This document shows positions 52,512 to 64,000 of a stretch of DNA of 64,000 bases, piece by piece (position 1 is the stretch's first letter; the number at the start of each line of letters is the position of its first letter). The stretch spans positions 124,001 through 188,000 of the forward strand of contig NZ_AUID01000001.1 in assembly GCF_000423525.1 (NCBI RefSeq). The letters run 5' to 3'. The position numbers and the translations under genes were made by a program. The notes beneath the pieces are model-generated. The model made no database searches. It was not told where the DNA came from and saw only the letters and a list, made by a program, of their open reading frames with translations. This DNA is from Proteocatella sphenisci DSM 23131. GTDB taxonomy: Bacteria; Bacillota; Clostridia; Peptostreptococcales; Filifactoraceae.

Positions 52512-55500
52512 TTAACATTTAACAGTTTCTTCAATCACTTTAACCTCCGAATCATTTATATCATAAATCTTATAGACTAATTCATCTATTCTTTTATCGA
52601 TTTCAGAGATTTCATCATCTGAAGATACTTCTAAAGCCTTGATATACTCGTCAACCAATTTTACCATCTCAATATGATCAATCTCGTCAGCATACTTTAT
52701 TGGCAAACGCCTTACATCATTAACTAATATTTTTGGAAACAATCCCTTATTTGCTTTTGGTGAGCTTGACATATGATAATAAGTCATCAATTTTGAATTC
52801 AAGATCCCTAATATATATTTAATGTTACACTTTATATTAATACAATTAATAATTGATGGTGTATTATAAAATTCTTCTGATGTGAACGCCGCTAATATTC
52901 TAGGATTTGTTATTTCTCTTATAAGTATTCTTTCTGAGTTGAAATATTCTTTTTTCCTAGGCGCTGCTAACCAATCGCCATAACTTATCCATATTTTTCC
53001 ATTCCATTTAATAGAAAATCTATTCACGTCCTTTCCAGCTAACTCTGGCCTGTATGTTTCATCTTTTTTAAAATCAGAATGCCATACTCTATTCTTTATT
53101 GTTTCTATTGAGTGACCCCTGTACTTATCATAAGGAATCAACCCTTGAGAAATATCAGAAATATCGCTAAATGGTATAGAATTATTAGTTATTTTTTTAC
53201 ATATGATTATTTGATCATTACTCTTATCAATAATATTGAGCCAGTTATCAATAAAATTTGATAAATCATTTTTTGTTGTACATTTGCTTTTTAAAAATTT
53301 GATTTGATTTAATTTGATAGTCATTTTGTTGAATTTTGCAAAAAATTCCTTATCATTATTCTTTAAAAGTATAATACAAGTTCTAACTTTTGCAGAATCA
53401 AATACATCAATATTAGACAAATCGTCAATTACTAATATTTCCCAATTTTGTATAAGCTGTTCCCTATATTTTTTGGCATTAATATTAGCCATAAACATAT
53501 TCGGTATTATATAATTCACTAATCCATCAAACTTTAACAACTCTTTGGATTTATCTATAAAGAAATTTGAAGACTCATAATCAGGTACAAATCTATATAA
53601 TTTTGATAATATATTTTTTTCATTCTTTGAAAATTTTGCACCATAAGGAGGATTACCAATTACTACATCAAACCCGCCTTTTTCCTTAAACACTCTTGCA
53701 AACTCAAGCTGCCATAGAAAGAATGGCGGAGACGGCTGATTTTTTACTTCGTTATATTTTTCAACTATTGCAGGATTTATTCCCTCTCCCAGGTTCAGTA
53801 ATACAATATTATCAATTATTGATCTGATAGACCGTTTTATCTGTTCTTTTTCAGAATGATTTTTTTCATAAAACAGTCTGTCCTGTGCTTCAAATAGCCT
53901 TGAAAGTAACGAATCGTACTGATTCTGACCCACTGAAATCTGATAAACTCTATTTCCAAACAAATCACTTTCGTTTATAAGCTTTGCTCCATCAAGCTCG
54001 TCAATGAGGCTGTTTCCACATCTTATATTGCAATCAAGGTTTGGCAGCGGTCGCGGATTTCTGGTTACTGCGTGCATACCATCATCAACTGCATTTTCAT
54101 CCGTTTCCTGATCTACAACAAGTGAAAGCCAGAGTCTGAGTTTTGTTATATCTACTGCTGAAGGATCTATGTCTACTGCAAATATTGAGTTTTTTATAGT
54201 GTGATACTTCAGATTCAAAGGATGTCGGTCTATTTCGTATAGCATTCTGGATTTGAACTTATCATTGATAATCATTACCATATATTCTGTTATGTTTTTT
54301 CTAGCCCTTACTATCTCAGACAGCATTCCCAAAGGAAATGCACCTGAGCCCACAGCAGGGTCAGCTACTCTGATATTTGCAAGTGCATCATCCACATCTT
54401 TCAATCTGTTTATATTGCTTTTTGTGTCAAGAATCTCCGTTGAAATAAACAGTTCTGAATCTCCGTTTCTGCTGCTTATATTCGTATCCTGATCTTTCAT
54501 GAACTCACCGTAGACAATAAAATCTTTTATGGCATCATAGGAGATTCCCGTTTCATTTGAAATGTGATTTGCAAGGCTCTCCTGACACATATAGTGAACT
54601 ATCTCTCTTGGAGTATAAAATGCTCCCTTCGATTTTCTGTCTTTTACATCCAGAAGGTTTTCAAATATCTTTCCTAGCATCTCGGGATCTACTGCAACTT
54701 CTTTTTCAAGCGGTTCGTCTTCGTTCATTGTAAAGTTATATCTGTCGAAAATGTCCAGTATTCCGTCCGCATCTTCTTTTCCTTTTAAATCAATGTTTGA
54801 GAACATTTCGTTTGGAATATCAAAATCATTGTGGTTCCAGTCATAATTGTCAAGAGGTTCAAAAAGGCCGCCGTTCAAAAATGGTACTTTGCATTTCAGC
54901 TTATTGTAATATCCTATATCTCCTCGCTGCTCGTTTAATGCTTCATAAAAAAGCGGCTCCAGATAATCGTCAAAAAAATTAAGATTCTTTTTCTGGCAGT
55001 TGTCATACATCTTTCTTAAAAAATCTCTTGGACCAGTACCCCAGGACTGACCTTTCAGTGCTGCCGCAAGTATTTCCTGTTTGCTTACTTCATATTCTTC
55101 AATCGTCTTTCCGCTTATTCTTGTATACTGATCTTCACCCGTCTGTCCATATACTGCAGGAATAATCTCTTTTGTGATTTTTCCTTTAAAATACAGTGCG
55201 TCATTATACTGCTTTTGTGTCAGTGTTTCAGGAAAAGCATTTACTCCCAGCCAGCCTTTTTTCTGAATAAAATAAAGGAATGCAAGCTGACCCATGAGTT
55301 TTTTTGAAAATTGTTCACTCGTGAAGTCCAGACGCTCTGCTTCGTGCATAAAATCTTCATTTGACTCCAGATGCTCTTTGAGTCCGATGTATTTTTTTCT
55401 ATAGTTCTCAAAAAATTCCTTAGTAACTTTTTCAACGCTGAATGCCTCTTCAATCTGATCCAAAGTAGGATTACCCTGATCATCCATAAATATTGGATAC

Positions 55501-55985
55501 AGTCTCTCTTCAGCAGTATGACACGGCTCCAGTTCTCCCACTAAATATGAATATCTTTTTGCAGGTGTGAGTTTCTCGGTGATTTTTCCTTTTGCAAATT
55601 CGTAATCCAGCCTAATAAATGACAGTCTCCACTTGCCTTCTCCTTTTGTGTAAAATGCCGCTATTGCTCCATCAACTCCAGCCGCATCCATGAGCTTTTT
55701 TACAAAGTTTCTCTGCATGCTGCGTGCATTTTCTACAGTTTTATGGCTTTTGAGTTCTACTGCAAACACTGCAATCTTCGCTCTGTCTTCACCAGAAAAA
55801 TTTGCAATATGATGATATCCCTCTATGTGATAACTGAATTCAGACCATTTTCTCGAATCATTCACAAATTTGTCAGGACGAACGATCTCTAAATTATTAA
55901 AGAATTCAGTTGTAAATTTTGTAAATTGTGATATCTCAAAGGATTTTTCAAGCGTATCTTTGAAAAATTGTTTTCTTGCGTCCAT
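52512..55985 (-). CDS. Eco57I-type N6-adenine DNA methyltransferase/specificity protein
   Basis: A 1157-residue class I DNA methyltransferase. Motif I is DPAVGSGAFPLGML near residue 540, the FAVDIDPSAVDITKLRLW motif follows, and the catalytic NPPY (VVIGNPPYGAKF) is near residue 776. The ~350 residues after it look like a target recognition domain, ending in a helical region. The first ~170 residues hold an IAVFAVELKSHK strand that recalls a nuclease-like or NTD fold, unproven. It lies 6 bp after the PLD-helicase gene, forming a two-gene restriction-modification unit. The recognition part is more AT-rich than the rest, which fits exchange of that domain. Confidence 0.9.
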   Translation of the reverse strand: MDARKQFFKDTLEKSFEISQFTKFTTEFFNNLEIVRPDKFVNDSRKWSEFSYHIEGYHHIANFSGEDRAKIAVFAVELKSHKTVENARSMQRNFVKKLMDAAGVDGAIAAFYTKGEGKWRLSFIRLDYEFAKGKITEKLTPAKRYSYLVGELEPCHTAEERLYPIFMDDQGNPTLDQIEEAFSVEKVTKEFFENYRKKYIGLKEHLESNEDFMHEAERLDFTSEQFSKKLMGQLAFLYFIQKKGWLGVNAFPETLTQKQYNDALYFKGKITKEIIPAVYGQTGEDQYTRISGKTIEEYEVSKQEILAAALKGQSWGTGPRDFLRKMYDNCQKKNLNFFDDYLEPLFYEALNEQRGDIGYYNKLKCKVPFLNGGLFEPLDNYDWNHNDFDIPNEMFSNIDLKGKEDADGILDIFDRYNFTMNEDEPLEKEVAVDPEMLGKIFENLLDVKDRKSKGAFYTPREIVHYMCQESLANHISNETGISYDAIKDFIVYGEFMKDQDTNISSRNGDSELFISTEILDTKSNINRLKDVDDALANIRVADPAVGSGAFPLGMLSEIVRARKNITEYMVMIINDKFKSRMLYEIDRHPLNLKYHTIKNSIFAVDIDPSAVDITKLRLWLSLVVDQETDENAVDDGMHAVTRNPRPLPNLDCNIRCGNSLIDELDGAKLINESDLFGNRVYQISVGQNQYDSLLSRLFEAQDRLFYEKNHSEKEQIKRSIRSIIDNIVLLNLGEGINPAIVEKYNEVKNQPSPPFFLWQLEFARVFKEKGGFDVVIGNPPYGAKFSKNEKNILSKLYRFVPDYESSNFFIDKSKELLKFDGLVNYIIPNMFMANINAKKYREQLIQNWEILVIDDLSNIDVFDSAKVRTCIILLKNNDKEFFAKFNKMTIKLNQIKFLKSKCTTKNDLSNFIDNWLNIIDKSNDQIIICKKITNNSIPFSDISDISQGLIPYDKYRGHSIETIKNRVWHSDFKKDETYRPELAGKDVNRFSIKWNGKIWISYGDWLAAPRKKEYFNSERILIREITNPRILAAFTSEEFYNTPSIINCINIKCNIKYILGILNSKLMTYYHMSSSPKANKGLFPKILVNDVRRLPIKYADEIDHIEMVKLVDEYIKALEVSSDDEISEIDKRIDELVYKIYDINDSEVKVIEETVKC

Positions 55986-55991
55986 AATATA

Positions 55992-58900
55992 TTAAACCTC
56001 GCTTTTTAAATACATTGAAAGGATAATTTGCTTTTCTTCTCTTGATTTTTTTGTACTTTGTCTTGTTTCTGCAAAATATGCAGAAGGTACCCCATTCATT
56101 ATAACATTGTAAACTTCTGCTTCATCTTCGACATTCTTGAGGTCTTTTATTATCTGCTTGCTTATTCCGCTTGGGATTTCACCATTTTCCCAGAGACCAA
56201 GCATCCTTACAATATATGAATCTTCTACATCTGTTAGTATTTTGCTTTTTTGAAGTGCTTTAAGATATTTTATTATTTTTGAATCGTTTCCTCTTACACC
56301 TGATTTATCGGCTACGATTTCAATTTCCTGCGAAAGTGCATCATCGAATGCATTTTTATTTTTTTCAAGATGATCAAAATAATTACGTTCAACAGAGTAA
56401 CGTTTTTCAGCTCTATCAGATTTAATATAATTTGCTGCTGAAATAAAAGATATTTCTTTTGTACTATCTGTTGTTATAAAAAATTTTTTTAATGCACCTT
56501 TTCTTATGAATGTAATTGTTCCATCGGCATTTATTCCAGAGAGTTTTTTGGCTGTTTTAGCTTTCAATGGCAGCTTCTTTATCTTTTCAAATAATTCCGG
56601 TTCATTATCTCTTACTCTTCTTATTTCCGCAAGAAATGCAAGTTCCGGATTAATACTTTCGGTATCTTCATCCAAATTTTTCGTCAGTTCTTCATACAGC
56701 TTATGGGAACTCACTTCTTCATCATCTGAGAGATATTTGAAATCTTCTCCGAGAGTATCGTGAAACAACTGTAATTTAGATATTATCCTGTCTTTTATTG
56801 GTAGTTGAATATCTGTCTGTGAAGTTGGGAAAAAATTATAAATATAAATATTCTCGTGTTTACTACCAACTCTGTTTATGCGTCCGCCTCTTTGCATTAT
56901 CTTTGTCGGGTTCCATGGCAAATCATAGTTTATTAAAACATTTGCCCTATGAAGGTTTATTCCTTCTGCTAACACATCTGTAGTTATAAGAATATCATAT
57001 TTATCTTTATTTAGGTCCTCATATTTTGGATTGAAACTATATTCAACATCCATCTTATGGTATTCACTACTTTCACCACTGAAATAAGTTAATCTGCTGC
57101 CATAAATATTCTCAAGATTTTCTTTTAGATATTTCGCTGTTTCTTTAGATTCTGTAAACACAATTATTTTTGCACTTTTCAATATCTCATCAGTCTGAAG
57201 TTGTTTTACAAATTCATCCAGCTTTGGATCTTCTTTAATTTCATCCCAATGTTCTTTTAACTGATTCAAGATAGCTAAGTCATATTCAAGCGCTGGCAAA
57301 AATGTAGGTTTTAGAGCTTCAGATTTAAAATGATATATTTTTTCTTCATCAACCAATCTCATTAATTTTGCATCATCTCCATTATCCAACAGGTCATATA
57401 CATTAATTTTTTTACTGACGTATACATCTCCAGTTTTAACCATTTTTATAAATTTTTCATACGATAGAATAAATCTGGATAGAGTCATCCTAAAAGCATG
57501 AAAACTGCTTTCGAGTCTCTTTACAAGTATCGCTTTCATGAATCCACTCATATTCTGCTGAGAAACTAAGATTGATGCGTATTTTTTATTATCTTTAAGA
57601 TAAAGTAAAGGTGTATATCTTGCATATCTTAAAGTCTTTATTGCAGCTATCGTCTCACTGAAAACGTCATCTACGGCTTTATCAAATGTGTATATTATCT
57701 TCTCTGGTGCTCCAAGCTTTGGAAATTTCAAGCCTTGATTTTTTAAATCATCAGCATAATATTCAATAATTTCTTTTCTAGTGCGCCTTATCATGACGTT
57801 TCTAAGAACTTGATCTCTGATATTCTCAGAATTTCTTTTAAGTACAGCTTTATATTCTGCTGTTCCCTTCTTTTGTTTGTTCAATTCAGTATTCATTTTT
57901 GCAAAAAATGATTCTAAATTTTTTACATTTGGAATAATCGTACTGTTATGCTTTTGCTGAAAAAGATATATTTGATTTTCTATATCACTTGAGTAATTAT
58001 TTATTGGAGTAGCCGAGATTAATATAACTTTTTTATCTTTACATATTTGATGCAGATGCCCATATGCTCCGGTGTCACTGTTTCTAAATCTATGAACTTC
58101 ATCTATAAATATATAATCATATCTTTCAAGCTTTTTAGGATTGTCAGCGATTCTCTCAAGTTTTCCAAGAGACACGACATCTGCAATAACATCAAATTCC
58201 TTCATGACTTCTTCCCAGTAATCAACTAAAACCGGTGGACAAATCACGAGTTTATTATGTCCTTTTTTGAGACTTTTTGCTAATAAAGCTGATATATATG
58301 TTTTTCCCAAACCGACAACATCCGAAATAAAGACTCCACCATAACTATCTAGTACTTTTTTTGCCTGAGTTACTGCATCAAGCTGATACTGAAGTCGCAT
58401 ATACCCATCAGGGAGGAGTTTTTCTATCGCAGCATTTTTATCGGAATTTATTTCCTCTTTAAAATATTCATAAATAGTTTTTAAATATAACTCATATGGA
58501 GTTATATCACTCTTTAACCAAGTCTTCCCTTCTATAGTTTCTATGTATGATTCTTTAATATCTACACCTTTTATCCATAGTTCCTCAAACTTTTCAAGCG
58601 CAAAATCCACGTCTCTGCTATCTTTTAATTCAACATTGAATTCTAAATTATTCTTCAACCCCGCTTCTGAAAAATTACTTGAACCAGTGATTACACTTCC
58701 ATACATATCAGGAATCAGAGCCATGTTCTTTCTCATTATGTACACTTTTGCATGTATTGGCGATTCTGTATACATTTTCACTTCAAGTTTTCCATTGTTA
58801 AGCCATTCAATAAAAGTCCTCACACCTTTTTCAACATCCATTGTATCATCTGATGAAGTAAATTCTTTTTCGATACTTTCAGAATATGCTTCTTTTGCTT

Positions 58901-59165
58901 CTTTTTGTGATAAAGATTTGGCAACAAACTCTTGCTCCGCTTGTTTAATTATCTCAACAGTCCTGTTGTCAACATTTAACCCTACTAATATTCGTATCTT
59001 ATCAAGTTTTTCCATTGCTGGATACATTCTGAAAAAGCCACTGGTTCTAAAATATCCCACTAAAACGTCAAAATATTGTGTATTGCTTTTTAATATATTT
59101 CCAAATCGTTCATATAGGTTTCGGTCCGGTTCATTTGTAAAAAAAGTCAAGTCATTGTGTGTCAT
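55992..59165 (-). CDS. PLD nuclease - SF2 helicase fusion (restriction/translocase subunit)
   Basis: A 1057-residue protein. The N-terminal ~200 residues are a phospholipase D-type nuclease domain: PIHAKVYI (HxK near residue 137) and GSSNFSEAGLKNNLEF (near 161). The rest is an SNF2-like SF2 motor: Walker A DVVGLGKTY near 285, FIDEVHRFRN near 355, LISATPINN, and motif VI QRGGRINRVGS near 758. Single-HKD proteins cut DNA as dimers. With the adjacent methyltransferase it forms an ATP-dependent restriction candidate like the PLD-type enzymes NgoAVII and CglI, but with nuclease and motor fused. AGGGGG lies upstream of the ATG. Confidence 0.9.
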   Translation of the reverse strand: MTHNDLTFFTNEPDRNLYERFGNILKSNTQYFDVLVGYFRTSGFFRMYPAMEKLDKIRILVGLNVDNRTVEIIKQAEQEFVAKSLSQKEAKEAYSESIEKEFTSSDDTMDVEKGVRTFIEWLNNGKLEVKMYTESPIHAKVYIMRKNMALIPDMYGSVITGSSNFSEAGLKNNLEFNVELKDSRDVDFALEKFEELWIKGVDIKESYIETIEGKTWLKSDITPYELYLKTIYEYFKEEINSDKNAAIEKLLPDGYMRLQYQLDAVTQAKKVLDSYGGVFISDVVGLGKTYISALLAKSLKKGHNKLVICPPVLVDYWEEVMKEFDVIADVVSLGKLERIADNPKKLERYDYIFIDEVHRFRNSDTGAYGHLHQICKDKKVILISATPINNYSSDIENQIYLFQQKHNSTIIPNVKNLESFFAKMNTELNKQKKGTAEYKAVLKRNSENIRDQVLRNVMIRRTRKEIIEYYADDLKNQGLKFPKLGAPEKIIYTFDKAVDDVFSETIAAIKTLRYARYTPLLYLKDNKKYASILVSQQNMSGFMKAILVKRLESSFHAFRMTLSRFILSYEKFIKMVKTGDVYVSKKINVYDLLDNGDDAKLMRLVDEEKIYHFKSEALKPTFLPALEYDLAILNQLKEHWDEIKEDPKLDEFVKQLQTDEILKSAKIIVFTESKETAKYLKENLENIYGSRLTYFSGESSEYHKMDVEYSFNPKYEDLNKDKYDILITTDVLAEGINLHRANVLINYDLPWNPTKIMQRGGRINRVGSKHENIYIYNFFPTSQTDIQLPIKDRIISKLQLFHDTLGEDFKYLSDDEEVSSHKLYEELTKNLDEDTESINPELAFLAEIRRVRDNEPELFEKIKKLPLKAKTAKKLSGINADGTITFIRKGALKKFFITTDSTKEISFISAANYIKSDRAEKRYSVERNYFDHLEKNKNAFDDALSQEIEIVADKSGVRGNDSKIIKYLKALQKSKILTDVEDSYIVRMLGLWENGEIPSGISKQIIKDLKNVEDEAEVYNVIMNGVPSAYFAETRQSTKKSREEKQIILSMYLKSEV

Positions 59166-59564: not shown

Positions 59565-60386
59565 ATGACTTACAATGAAATCACATTTGAAAATATCAAA
59601 CATTTCACAGAAGAAGGAATTGAATTTTGGTATGCCAGAGAGTTACAAGAGACGCTGGAATATAAACAATGGAGACGTTTCTTTTCTGTAATAGAAAAAG
59701 CAATGATAGCATGCGAAAGCTCTGGCAATACTGTTGATGAACATTTTGCCAACGTTGGCAAAACGATAAGTATGCCTAAAGGTGCATCAAAAGAAATAGA
59801 TGATTATATGCTTTCCAGGTATGCCTGTTACCTTATAGTCCAAAATGGAGATCCAAGGAAGGAAGTTATAGCCCTTGGCCAAACATATTTTGCTGTAAAA
59901 ACAAGGCAACAGGAATTAGCTGAATCAGATGCAATGTTAACGGAAGAGCAACGAAGACTTGCCATCAGGGGAGATTTAACTGAGCATAATAAGTCACTTG
60001 TTGATGCAGCGAAAGATGCCGGCGTTGACACTAAACAGGAATATGCTATTTTTCAAAATAAAGGCTATCAAGGACTTTACGGTGGTCTAGGAGCAAAAGA
60101 TATACATGATAGAAAAGGACTAAAGTCTTCACAAAAAATTCTGGACCATATGAGCAGCGAAGAACTTGCCGCTAACTTGTTTCGTGCCACTCAAGCTGAA
60201 GCAAAGCTAAGAAGAGAAGGTATACAAGGCAAGGATAATGCTAACAAAGCCCATTTTGAAGTTGGTAAAAAGGTTAGACAAACAATTGAGGAACTTGGAG
60301 GTACTATGCCAGAAGATCTGCCTACTCCAGACAAGAGTATTAAGCAGATTGAAAGGGAGAAAAACAAAAAGAAACTTCCTAAATAA
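59565..60386 (+). CDS. dinD: DNA damage-inducible protein D (DinD)
   Basis: A 273-residue DinD homologue; in E. coli it is SOS-induced and blocks RecA filament activity. FWYARELQETLEYKQWRRF (Bro-N-like start), YMLSRYACYLIVQNGDPRKE and the middle region around NKGYQGLYGG are typical. CGGAGG lies before the ATG. In bacteria the gene is often found in mobile or defence regions. It is 45 bp upstream of the ImmA-like gene on the same strand. Confidence 0.92.
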   Translation: MTYNEITFENIKHFTEEGIEFWYARELQETLEYKQWRRFFSVIEKAMIACESSGNTVDEHFANVGKTISMPKGASKEIDDYMLSRYACYLIVQNGDPRKEVIALGQTYFAVKTRQQELAESDAMLTEEQRRLAIRGDLTEHNKSLVDAAKDAGVDTKQEYAIFQNKGYQGLYGGLGAKDIHDRKGLKSSQKILDHMSSEELAANLFRATQAEAKLRREGIQGKDNANKAHFEVGKKVRQTIEELGGTMPEDLPTPDKSIKQIEREKNKKKLPK

Positions 60387-60764: not shown

Positions 60765-62348
60765 ATGGCATTTATTTTGTTCGGGATAGTTGTTTTTTTA
60801 TCACTAAATCTTCACAGCTACAAGAAAAAGGAAAAAGATTTTGTTAATCTGGTTACCTCAAAAAAAGCTGAATTAACAGCTCTGGAAAAGAGGAAAAACG
60901 AAGAATGGACCAAAATGGAACAACAGAAGAAAGATGAACTTTCTTCCATAGAAAAGCTTATAGCAAATAAGGATTCCGAGTGGCAAAAAATTGTAGATGA
61001 AGCAAAAGCTCATGCTGGCAAAGAAATTGTAGAAATATCTAAAAATAAAAGTTTTTACTCAGATGAAGTCATTAGATTGAAAAATGATTATGAAAAATAT
61101 ACTAAATCCTGTATAACTCAAGAAAATAAATTAAGAAAAATAAAAGAGATATATAGAAGTATGGATTCTGCAATAAATAATTATACGGTATCTGATTTTT
61201 CTTTTGACAAACTTAGATTACCCAATACTGTTTTAGATGAGGCTGAACAACTATCTCCATCTGTGGTACTTAAGTTGAATTGTATGGATATCAAATCACT
61301 GAGAAAATCTTTTAATGATAATAACAAATTGATAGATGAAGTATTAACAAAATATGCACAACGATATACAACAAAGGCTAATGCTACAATTTATAAATTG
61401 ATGGTTATAGCACTCAGAGCTGAATTACAAAATATTCTATATAGCTTAAAATATGATAAACTTTCTGTTGCACTAGGTCATGTTTCTGAAATATCTAAAA
61501 AATATTTACAAATAGCTTCTGACGGAAATCAGAGTATAGCTCCTACTTTAGTTAAATTTATAGGAGAGCTCGAATACTTATTCTTCAATGCTGTACATAT
61601 CGAGTATGAATATTATGTAAAAAAAGAACAAGCTAAATTAGAACAACAGGCTATCAGAGAGCAACTTAGACAAGAAGCCGAAGAAAGAAAAGAATTAAAA
61701 AGACAACAAGAACAGCTTGATAAAGAAGAATCTAAATATGTTAATGAAATCGATAAGATAAAAGATCAATTGGCTTCTGCTGATTCCGAAAAACAGGAAC
61801 AACTTAATGCTAGAATAAAAGAACTTGAAAGTCAGATTCAAGATATTGAAAGCAAAAAATCAGAAATTGTAAACCTTCAAAACGGAAAAGCTGGAAGCGT
61901 TTACGTAATTTCTAATATGGGCGCTTTCGGAGAAAACGTCTTCAAAGTAGGTATGACAAGAAGACTTGAACCTATGGATAGAATAAAAGAGTTAAGCAGC
62001 GCAAGTGTGCCATTCTCATTTGATGTTCATAGCCTTATATTCTCAAATGATGCTGTAAATTTAGAACAAACGCTCCACCAGAGGCTGAATGACAAACGAG
62101 TTAATATGATTAACCTTAGAAAAGAATTTTTTAGAACATCTATTGATGAACTTGAAGCTCTCGTTAATGAAATTGATATAAGCGCAGAATTTAATAAAAC
62201 AATGCTTGCTGAAGAATTTAGACAAAGCTGCGACATAATTGAAAACGGACTCTTCCCTACTTCATCCGATGAAATTGACGAGTCTGATTATGAAAATGAT
62301 GAGAACTATGACGAGAACTATGAAGATGAACTTGAAGATGTAATATAA
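60765..62348 (+). CDS. membrane-anchored coiled-coil protein with DUF4041-like and T5orf172/GIY-YIG domains
   Basis: A 527-residue protein. Residues 2-17 are a hydrophobic anchor (AFILFGIVVFLSLNL); ~20-125 are coiled coil; ~125-285 resemble DUF4041; ~285-375 are a second highly charged coiled coil; ~376-465 match the T5orf172/MUG113 branch of GIY-YIG nucleases (GSVYVISN, FKVGMTRR, LEQTLHQRL, KEFF); the tail is very acidic. DUF4041/T5orf172 proteins occur in phages and mobile islands, with unknown function. GGGGG precedes the ATG. It starts 15 bp after the ImmA-like frame and is probably cotranscribed with it and dinD. Confidence 0.83.
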   Translation: MAFILFGIVVFLSLNLHSYKKKEKDFVNLVTSKKAELTALEKRKNEEWTKMEQQKKDELSSIEKLIANKDSEWQKIVDEAKAHAGKEIVEISKNKSFYSDEVIRLKNDYEKYTKSCITQENKLRKIKEIYRSMDSAINNYTVSDFSFDKLRLPNTVLDEAEQLSPSVVLKLNCMDIKSLRKSFNDNNKLIDEVLTKYAQRYTTKANATIYKLMVIALRAELQNILYSLKYDKLSVALGHVSEISKKYLQIASDGNQSIAPTLVKFIGELEYLFFNAVHIEYEYYVKKEQAKLEQQAIREQLRQEAEERKELKRQQEQLDKEESKYVNEIDKIKDQLASADSEKQEQLNARIKELESQIQDIESKKSEIVNLQNGKAGSVYVISNMGAFGENVFKVGMTRRLEPMDRIKELSSASVPFSFDVHSLIFSNDAVNLEQTLHQRLNDKRVNMINLRKEFFRTSIDELEALVNEIDISAEFNKTMLAEEFRQSCDIIENGLFPTSSDEIDESDYENDENYDENYEDELEDVI

Positions 62349-62434: not shown

Positions 62435-62463
62435 TTTACATTTTTGCAATTAAAATATATAAT
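62435..62463 (+). promoter_or_regulatory. promoter of the toxin-antitoxin-chaperone operon
   Basis: TTTACA (62435-62440), 17-bp spacer, perfect TATAAT (62458-62463). The palindromic operator starts one base later. Confidence 0.78.
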
Positions 62464-62464
62464 A

Positions 62465-62490
62465 GAAATATAACCTATAGGTTATATTTC
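62465..62490. promoter_or_regulatory. 26-bp perfect palindrome, antitoxin operator candidate
   Basis: Arms of 13 bases with centre CCTA|TAGG (inner part ATAACCTATAGGTTAT). It lies between the TATAAT box and the toxin start codon, where an XRE dimer would repress transcription. There is no T-run, so it is not a terminator. Confidence 0.8.
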
Positions 62491-62508
62491 ATTAAAAGAG
62501 GGTATTAA

Positions 62509-62904
62509 ATGAATGATAATCTAATTCAAAAAATAGAGTATCCTGGCGAATCCGAAATATATGGGTATAGGGATTTCAATTCCGAATTGATGTCTATTGT
62601 CAAAAAAAGCGGAAAACAAAAGGAAATCGCACTCGGAATTCGTAAGTATTATGACATGCTTGGGAAAATGTCATTGCAGGAACTTATAAGGAATAAGCAT
62701 TTCGAAAAACTCAAGGATACAAAACATGATCTTTACTGTATCAGATTTTTAAAGCAGTTAAATTTACGAATCATTTTCATATTTATGGAAGATGATGGTA
62801 GAAAAGTCTTAATTCATGCTTTCTCAGAAAAGAACAAAAGTGATTACAAAATCGCTATAAAAAAATCAGAGGGTATCGTTGAAAGACTGCAAGGAGGAAA
62901 ATAA
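62509..62904 (+). CDS. RelE/HigB-like toxin
   Basis: A 131-residue basic protein of the RelE/HigB (Gp49-like) fold, which acts as ribosome-dependent mRNA interferase. The core is LYCIRFLKQLNLRIIFIFME followed by the C-terminal strand LIHAFSEKNKSDYKIAIKK. GAGGG precedes the ATG. Its TAA is followed without a gap by the antitoxin ATG. As in HigBA modules, the toxin gene comes first. Confidence 0.85.
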   Translation: MNDNLIQKIEYPGESEIYGYRDFNSELMSIVKKSGKQKEIALGIRKYYDMLGKMSLQELIRNKHFEKLKDTKHDLYCIRFLKQLNLRIIFIFMEDDGRKVLIHAFSEKNKSDYKIAIKKSEGIVERLQGGK

Positions 62905-63276
62905 ATGAAAACTATGGATATGACTTGGCTATTTGAAGGAATATCAAAAGAAGAATTAGAGCTCGACAAGCTTCTTTCTGATATCTCAATAGCCATAATT
63001 AAAGAAAGATATGCACTTGATATGAATCAAAAAGATTTTGCAAGACACTTAGGTATTTCCCAACCTATGGTTTCGAAACTTGAGAGTCTTGAATACAACC
63101 CAAGTGTTAAAACACTGTTTCAAATATGTAAAAAATTGAATCTTAAACTAGATATTAGTGTCACTAAAGTTGAGAGCGCAACAAAATCTGTGCTAACAAG
63201 GTTTGTAAATAAAAAAGAATCTGACGTAGCGCCCAATAGCAGTAACCAGGATAATCAAAGAGCAATCGCAGCATAA
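62905..63276 (+). CDS. XRE-type antitoxin (HigA-like) with C-terminal tail
   Basis: A 123-residue helix-turn-helix protein. The DNA-binding part is DMNQKDFARHLGISQPMVSK followed by LESLEYNPSVKTLFQICKK. Beyond ~residue 85 there is a ~38-residue low-complexity tail rich in Asn, Ser, Gln and Ala, which plain HigA does not need; in TAC systems a C-terminal extension (ChAD) binds the chaperone. GGAGG lies 6 bases before the ATG, inside the toxin gene end. It probably represses the operon through the 26-bp palindrome. Confidence 0.85.
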   Translation: MKTMDMTWLFEGISKEELELDKLLSDISIAIIKERYALDMNQKDFARHLGISQPMVSKLESLEYNPSVKTLFQICKKLNLKLDISVTKVESATKSVLTRFVNKKESDVAPNSSNQDNQRAIAA

Positions 63277-63285
63277 GGAGAATTT

Positions 63286-63792
63286 ATGAACAGTATAAAT
63301 AATATAATAGCTGATTTCCAAAATATAAAATCAAAAATAATACATTCTAAAATGGATTTTAGTAGTGAAATTGATATTGATAATCCCACCAGTTACGATT
63401 ATGCTATTGACTACGAAGTAATCAATTCAAAATTAGAACATCTGGAATACGACGAAGAATCTGTTGATTTTTACACAGGAGAAATAAAGTTCTTCCTTAA
63501 ATTGTACGAACTATCAAATCAGAAATATAAAAACCCCAGTTTTAAAAATATAATACCTTTTATTGAGATAATATCAACAGGGACATTCGCAGGAAATGCA
63601 AACGTATTAGATAATGATATGTTTGACCGTATGTTAGTTCAAAACGGTTTAATTTATCTTTCTCAATTTGTAAGAGTTCACCTTCTAGCGATAACATCTA
63701 CAATTGGTATTTCTGGAAATTTCAGTCTCCCTATGATTAACATTGTACAATTCATACAAGAAAATGAAAAAGAAAAATCTAAGAAGAAGTAA
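63286..63792 (+). CDS. SecB-like chaperone of a putative TAC module
   Basis: A 168-residue protein without a signal or membrane helix. The second half follows the SecB layout: IEIISTGTFAGN (beta strand), then LIYLSQFVRVHLLAITSTIG (cf. SecB LfPyxRe...SSLTxRxG), then NFSLPMINIVQFIQ (cf. lPPINF), and a charged tail. The N-terminal third is diverged. It starts 9 bp after the antitoxin gene with AAGGAG upstream. In the M. tuberculosis TAC system the third gene is likewise a SecB-type chaperone that protects the antitoxin. Match is by motif only; a fold search would settle it. Confidence 0.68.
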   Translation: MNSINNIIADFQNIKSKIIHSKMDFSSEIDIDNPTSYDYAIDYEVINSKLEHLEYDEESVDFYTGEIKFFLKLYELSNQKYKNPSFKNIIPFIEIISTGTFAGNANVLDNDMFDRMLVQNGLIYLSQFVRVHLLAITSTIGISGNFSLPMINIVQFIQENEKEKSKKK

Positions 63793-63837
63793 GAGTTTAT
63801 TTAGAGGCCCTGACCTCTTTTATATACAAAAAATTAG

Positions 63838-64000
63838 GGTAGTAATATATGGTACGGTCAGATAACTATCGGTGTAGATGAAAATAGAAAATACAAAAGA
63901 AAATCCGTTTCAGGTAAATCTAAAATGGAAATTTCTGATAAACATCGACAAATAACACATGATATGGGTGTAATGGATGTGGGCAAAGCTAATTCATATA
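63838..64000 (+). pseudogene. degenerate N-terminus of a tyrosine recombinase/integrase (runs off window)
   Basis: The frame from 63838 reads GSNIWYGQITIGVDENRKYK and then RKSVSGKSK, matching the AP2-like DNA-binding start of phage and transposon integrases (W.GQIT.G.DENGK.KRKS.YGK). No start codon is available: a TAG precedes it in frame. Shortly upstream, in another frame, TTT ATA TAC AAA AAA TTA GGG reads FIYKKLG, similar to the IYKRKDG lead-in, so one extra base near 63840 could explain the break. The 3' part lies beyond the window. Confidence 0.6.

Follow-up and report, generated by a model that had tools for sequence, protein, structure and literature searches.

A probable toxin-antitoxin-chaperone operon of HigBA-plus-SecB type beside defence genes in Proteocatella sphenisci

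We analysed a 64-kb stretch of the Proteocatella sphenisci DSM 23131 genome (the window) and conclude with high confidence that a three-gene operon near its 3′ end is a toxin-antitoxin-chaperone (TAC) system of HigBA-plus-SecB type, the antitoxin of which would be guarded by the chaperone and cleared by ClpXP, with a phage structural protein as the likely trigger. The system is most likely a HigBAC-like TAC with an anti-phage role, and by analogy its antitoxin very probably needs the dedicated SecB-type chaperone. A TAC operon had already been proposed in the first-pass annotation of this DNA, and the proposal is supported by the SecB fold of the third protein, the recurrent triplet, controls on the antitoxin tail and a common operator.

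Operon layout and selection

The toxin, antitoxin and third ORF, with their own promoter, a palindrome and a terminator-like hairpin, form a single transcription unit within 62435-63792. The features of the operon and its flanks (window positions) are:

60765-62348, + strand: SNIPE/PD-Lambda-1 homologue, full-length, directly upstream of the operon and separate from it (PADLOC PD-Lambda-1, E 1e-81, residues 9-494)
62435-62463, + strand: promoter, TTTACA-17 nt-TATAAT (11/12 consensus in a consensus scan, top score of the region)
62465-62490, + strand: operator, perfect 26-bp palindrome (13+13) GAAATATAACCTA/TAGGTTATATTTC, directly 3′ of the -10 box
62509-62904, + strand: toxin, 131 aa, RelE/HigB (Gp49/DUF891-like) fold (AF2 pLDDT 87, Foldseek)
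62905-63276, + strand: XRE/Cro-type HTH antitoxin, 123 aa, with a C-terminal extension ending AIAA (PF01381, E 8e-12)
63163-63273, + strand: antitoxin tail, last 37 residues, putative chaperone-addiction region (SVLTRFVNKKESD..) and ClpX-like degron AIAA (alignment, controls)
63286-63792, + strand: SecB-like chaperone, 168 aa, lineage-specific inserts around residues 50-60 and 77-91
63803-63818, + strand: terminator-like hairpin (intrinsic type), AGAGGCCCTGACCTCT then TTTATA, 3′ end of the operon
63850-64000, + strand, continuing past the window end to about 64500 (L032:4850-5510): start of a decayed tyrosine integrase (six-frame reading, by eye)

The antitoxin starts on the base right after the toxin stop and the third ORF follows 9 nt past the antitoxin, so that the three packed genes lie exactly where they had been placed earlier, with both junctions (0 nt and 9 nt) confirmed. 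The common promoter and operator claimed for them were also found, the palindrome being perfect and the operator kept across the family loci. An Rfam search of the operon region gave zero matches. The unit looks like a complete operon carrying its own signals.

Its nearest relative, on the viral contig L022 (IMG/VR), has all three genes in identical order and with identical lengths, and retains both promoter hexamers and the operator. Compared with L022, dN/dS is approximately 0.16 for the toxin, 0.08 for the antitoxin and 0.05 for the third gene, and the coding changes cluster at third codon positions. Given the matching order and lengths in L022 and the low dN/dS, the three ORFs are not due to chance; dN/dS and the third-position bias further indicate that all three genes are maintained as proteins. 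Thus, the toxin, antitoxin and chaperone genes are under purifying selection.

Folds of the toxin and the third protein

Searching PDB sequences with a toxin profile returned nothing convincing and, therefore, structures were compared instead. The AF2 model has the BECR fold of the HigB/RelE toxin superfamily: its top Foldseek match is the S. pneumoniae toxin-antitoxin (TA) toxin 6af4, followed by HigB2, YoeB and ribosome-bound M. tuberculosis HigB1. Against Gp49 (PF05973) the window toxin scores 15.1 bits (E 0.025), below the cut-off of 23.9, and six of ten toxin family members match this model (E up to 0.1; best 2.2e-5). By analogy, the toxin is most likely a ribosome-dependent mRNA endonuclease. 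Identity with CmdTAC was rejected, as the toxin is RelE-fold rather than an ADP-ribosyltransferase and PADLOC reported no PD-T4-9 match.

Searched by itself, the window's third protein matches SecB neither in Pfam nor among PDB sequences. Since single-sequence searches of Pfam, NCBIfam and PDB with the chaperone were empty or meaningless, a family alignment was needed. At the family level, SecB (PF02556) is matched by nine of 13 members (best 1e-12), the top three PDB hits of the family profile are SecB of Haemophilus and E. coli (E approx. 0.003), and hhalign gives 99% probability over nearly the whole protein against clostridial proteins picked out by the SecB Pfam model. The AF2 monomer model (5-row alignment; pLDDT 78, pTM 0.73) shows four strands, a long helix and a second helix, which is the element order of SecB, and Foldseek ranks 1-13 are all SecB chains (E. 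coli, Haemophilus and the M. tuberculosis TAC chaperone 5mtw). With at most 0.54 (query length) and 0.64 (target length), the TM-scores are modest; a diverged protein that carries inserts and was modelled from a 5-row alignment would be expected to score in this range. A fold unrelated to SecB had been set beforehand as the outcome that would speak against a TAC, and the predicted fold leaves the reading standing. SecB-likeness had been assigned to the C-terminal half; the segment cited for it is present, but the similarity extends over the whole protein.

That the SecB-type protein of this operon is a TAC chaperone, as the first-pass annotation argued from the usual lack of SecB in Firmicutes, is supported here. 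SecB-like genes, some linked to toxin-antitoxin genes, had already been described in Gram-positives and outside proteobacteria (PMC4257090), so the occurrence by itself is less surprising than stated. No match was found by tblastn of the window and L005 chaperones against phage and plasmid collections, and none in viral contigs scanned with the L005 and L024 chaperones. A further clostridial SecB-like group (L010, L013, L014, L017) has no evident toxin-antitoxin neighbour.

Conserved triplet, antitoxin tail and operator

The same triplet, which the first-pass annotation had suggested looking for in other Clostridia, occurs in about a dozen other, mostly clostridial, loci, where gene order is kept with mostly 17-40% identity to the window proteins. 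It is present in L003, L004, L005, L020, L022, L023, L024, L025 and L028; in L002 and L026/L047 it occurs as well, but the toxin frame is interrupted. In a toxin-profile search of two overlapping samples, one of 198 relatives and one of 391 genomes from the class, all eight intact toxin copies above 100 bits in these sampled Clostridia, the window's included, have a chaperone. Broken relatives were also seen (toxin in G288 and G028, chaperone in L006, and L040). The sole strong chaperone-less relative, L040 (1122-1698), combines an N-terminally truncated toxin with an antitoxin lacking the usual tail end, as would follow if an antitoxin can retain its tail only in the presence of the chaperone. 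The L040 remnant still bears the exact operator. Other Clostridia hold CmdTAC-like loci (L009:658-1893, L027:515-1929) with an ADP-ribosyltransferase-type toxin, a small antitoxin and a SecB-like chaperone, the presumed antitoxins ending WIAA and IRAA, respectively. Further clostridial TAC-like triplets with other toxins and diverged SecB-like proteins (L015:540-1827, L007:603-1893) lie outside the operator group.

As controls for the antitoxin tail, we used 27 Gp49-type HigBA-like pairs of the same order, none of which (0/27) has a chaperone. The control antitoxins have a mean length of 99 aa, and most of them stop just past the HTH domain; the extension (ChAD) of about 35 residues, with its putative chaperone binding, is absent from all 27. 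The extra tail pointed out earlier is, hence, specific to chaperone-bearing loci in this comparison. A C-terminal Ala was found in nine of 12 TAC-family antitoxins versus none of the 27 controls; as the TAC-family members are not independent points, no p-value is claimed for this difference. As a sequence feature, the antitoxin bears a ClpX-type C-terminal degron, the AIAA end being present in the window and in L022. The idea that the ribosome-binding site of the chaperone gene incidentally produces this Ala ending was rejected for these two, because that site lies at and after the antitoxin stop. The host genome encodes ClpX. In known systems, HigA1 ends in a Val-Ala ClpX signal (PMC8165232), and CmdA and other TAC antitoxins in an LAA ClpX signal (PMC11618068). 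The window tail lacks the Trp motifs (Trp-based ChAD) of M. tuberculosis HigA1, so that chaperone binding is deduced from position, conservation and controls. By analogy with HigA1 and CmdA, the tail is a putative chaperone-addiction region plus degron (PMC5105189, PMC8165232, PMC11618068).

The quality of the operator palindrome was matched by none of 200 shuffles, and its core matches the family operator ATAACTTATAAGTTAT. This sequence or a close variant stands upstream of the toxin in 13/13 family loci and is exact in five. In the 64-kb window, the operon's site is the sole match of at least 13/16 (forward strand scored, near-palindromic site); it scores 14/16 although it is a perfect palindrome. 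The best score in the control loci is also 14/16, over approximately 3 kb and both strands. ATAACTTATAAGTTAT was not found upstream of the CmdTAC-like loci L009 and L027 nor of the unrelated TAC L007. Because some of the family loci supplied the consensus, the argument rests chiefly on the exact repeats and on the loci that lack the site. A tree of the chaperones places the members with the operator in one group (support 95/93), separate from the CmdTAC-type proteins and from other SecB-like proteins of Clostridia; within this group, the window protein and that of L022 share a long branch. Judged by sequence, the clostridial TAC group is recognisable by this common predicted operator.

Genomic setting, mechanism and alternatives

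The SNIPE homologue has an N-terminal hydrophobic segment, a coiled coil and a GIY-YIG-type MUG113/T5orf172 domain (Pfam PF13455, PF10544), and is preceded by a BRO-N protein and an ImmA/IrrE-like fragment. The BRO-N protein (59565-60386) matches the PADLOC candidate family PDC-S13 over its full length (E 6e-121). On the minus strand, 52512-59165 holds a type IIG-like methylase/restriction protein (Eco57I, TaqI_C) adjoining a PLD-helicase that resembles PADLOC ‘HKD+Snf2’ and DrmD; this region is a probable further defence system. Downstream of the operon, the integrase-like stretches are interrupted by stops, and in L022 the operon is flanked by a CI-like repressor on one side and an integrase on the other. 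Based on this integrase remnant and the phage genes of L022, the module appears to travel with temperate phages and to reside now among defence genes. The prophage remnant and the SNIPE neighbour together point to anti-phage defence.

TAC precedents have been described (PMC11618068, PMC11980606, PMC9519451, PMC5105189, PMC8165232). By description, the operon resembles HigBAC of E. coli C496, with a HigB-type toxin, a HigA antitoxin and a SecB-like chaperone, for which sensing of phage structural proteins has been proposed (PMC11980606). However, HigBAC has a proteobacterial host, and the trigger, the lambda major tail protein, is known only for HigBAC. With M. tuberculosis HigB1-HigA1-Rv1957 it shares the toxin fold (7nbu and 7awk are among the Foldseek matches), the chaperone fold and, as in HigA1, an antitoxin tail with a hydrophobic C-terminal degron (PMC8165232), but chaperone identity is only about 10% and the Trp-based motif is absent. 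CmdTAC (PD-T4-9) likewise has a SecB-like chaperone last in the operon and an antitoxin with an LAA-type ClpXP signal (PMC11618068), whereas CmdT is an mRNA ADP-ribosyltransferase unrelated to the window toxin; the clostridial CmdTAC-like loci are separate and lack the ATAACTTATAAGTTAT operator. Two-gene Gp49-type HigBA pairs agree in toxin superfamily and HTH domain, but have no chaperone, no tail and no Ala ending.

From homology with HigBAC, CmdTAC and the M. tuberculosis TAC, we infer toxin activity, chaperone dependence, ClpXP degradation, autoregulation and a phage trigger, and propose the following mechanism. The HigB/RelE-fold toxin would be neutralised by the XRE antitoxin, dimers of which would repress the operon via the palindrome. 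The antitoxin tail would combine a binding site for the chaperone with a ClpX-type degron (..AIAA), so that the antitoxin would be stable only as long as the SecB-like protein is bound to this tail. If a competing client captured the chaperone, most plausibly a phage structural protein that has just been synthesised, as for HigBAC and CmdTAC, ClpXP would remove the antitoxin and the toxin would stop translation in the infected cell.

Clostridia do have SecB-like genes without toxin-antitoxin neighbours (e.g., L008, L011, L012), and the operon might be an ordinary two-gene HigBA-type pair beside a bystander or a general folding or export factor. We regard this as very improbable, given that the triplet order persists at mostly 17-40% identity to the window proteins, that no intact toxin without a chaperone occurs in the sample and that antitoxin tails are found only alongside the chaperone. 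The least probable reading is a non-functional, decayed relic in a prophage remnant. The neighbouring integrase and several relatives are indeed broken, and the decay of the prophage around the operon was counted against our interpretation; nevertheless, all three reading frames as well as the promoter, operator and terminator are undamaged, dN/dS versus L022 is 0.05-0.16, and the operator and the AIAA end are kept.

A TAC serving mainly in stress response, or as an addiction module stabilising a mobile element, rather than in phage defence, is unlikely but deserves more weight than either of these. The M. tuberculosis TAC has been described as stress-responsive (PMC4257090), and the setting with its integrase remnant is mobile. 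On the other hand, the SNIPE homologue and restriction-like genes lie directly alongside, and CmdTAC, MqsRAC and HigBAC, when tested against phage, defend (PMC9519451, PMC11618068, PMC11980606). An anti-phage TAC, thus, remains the preferred reading.

No description of the clostridial TAC lineage was found in the literature covered, which did not include the survey of Sala et al. (2013). We tentatively suggest that a TAC lineage centred on Clostridia, spread by prophages and carrying a conserved operator of its own, may constitute a phage defence of Gram-positive anaerobes, in which a SecB-like protein would sense structural proteins of competing phages and, in P. sphenisci, form a second layer behind SNIPE. 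The clostridial chaperone is sometimes too diverged for Pfam, but its lineage can be recognised from the triplet, the antitoxin tail and the common operator, which suggests that TACs are undercounted in Gram-positives. Detailed knowledge of TACs comes so far from mycobacteria and E. coli; a Gram-positive SecB-type protein has no obvious export job, and the lineage offers a clean setting for asking whether chaperone hijacking senses phages generally.
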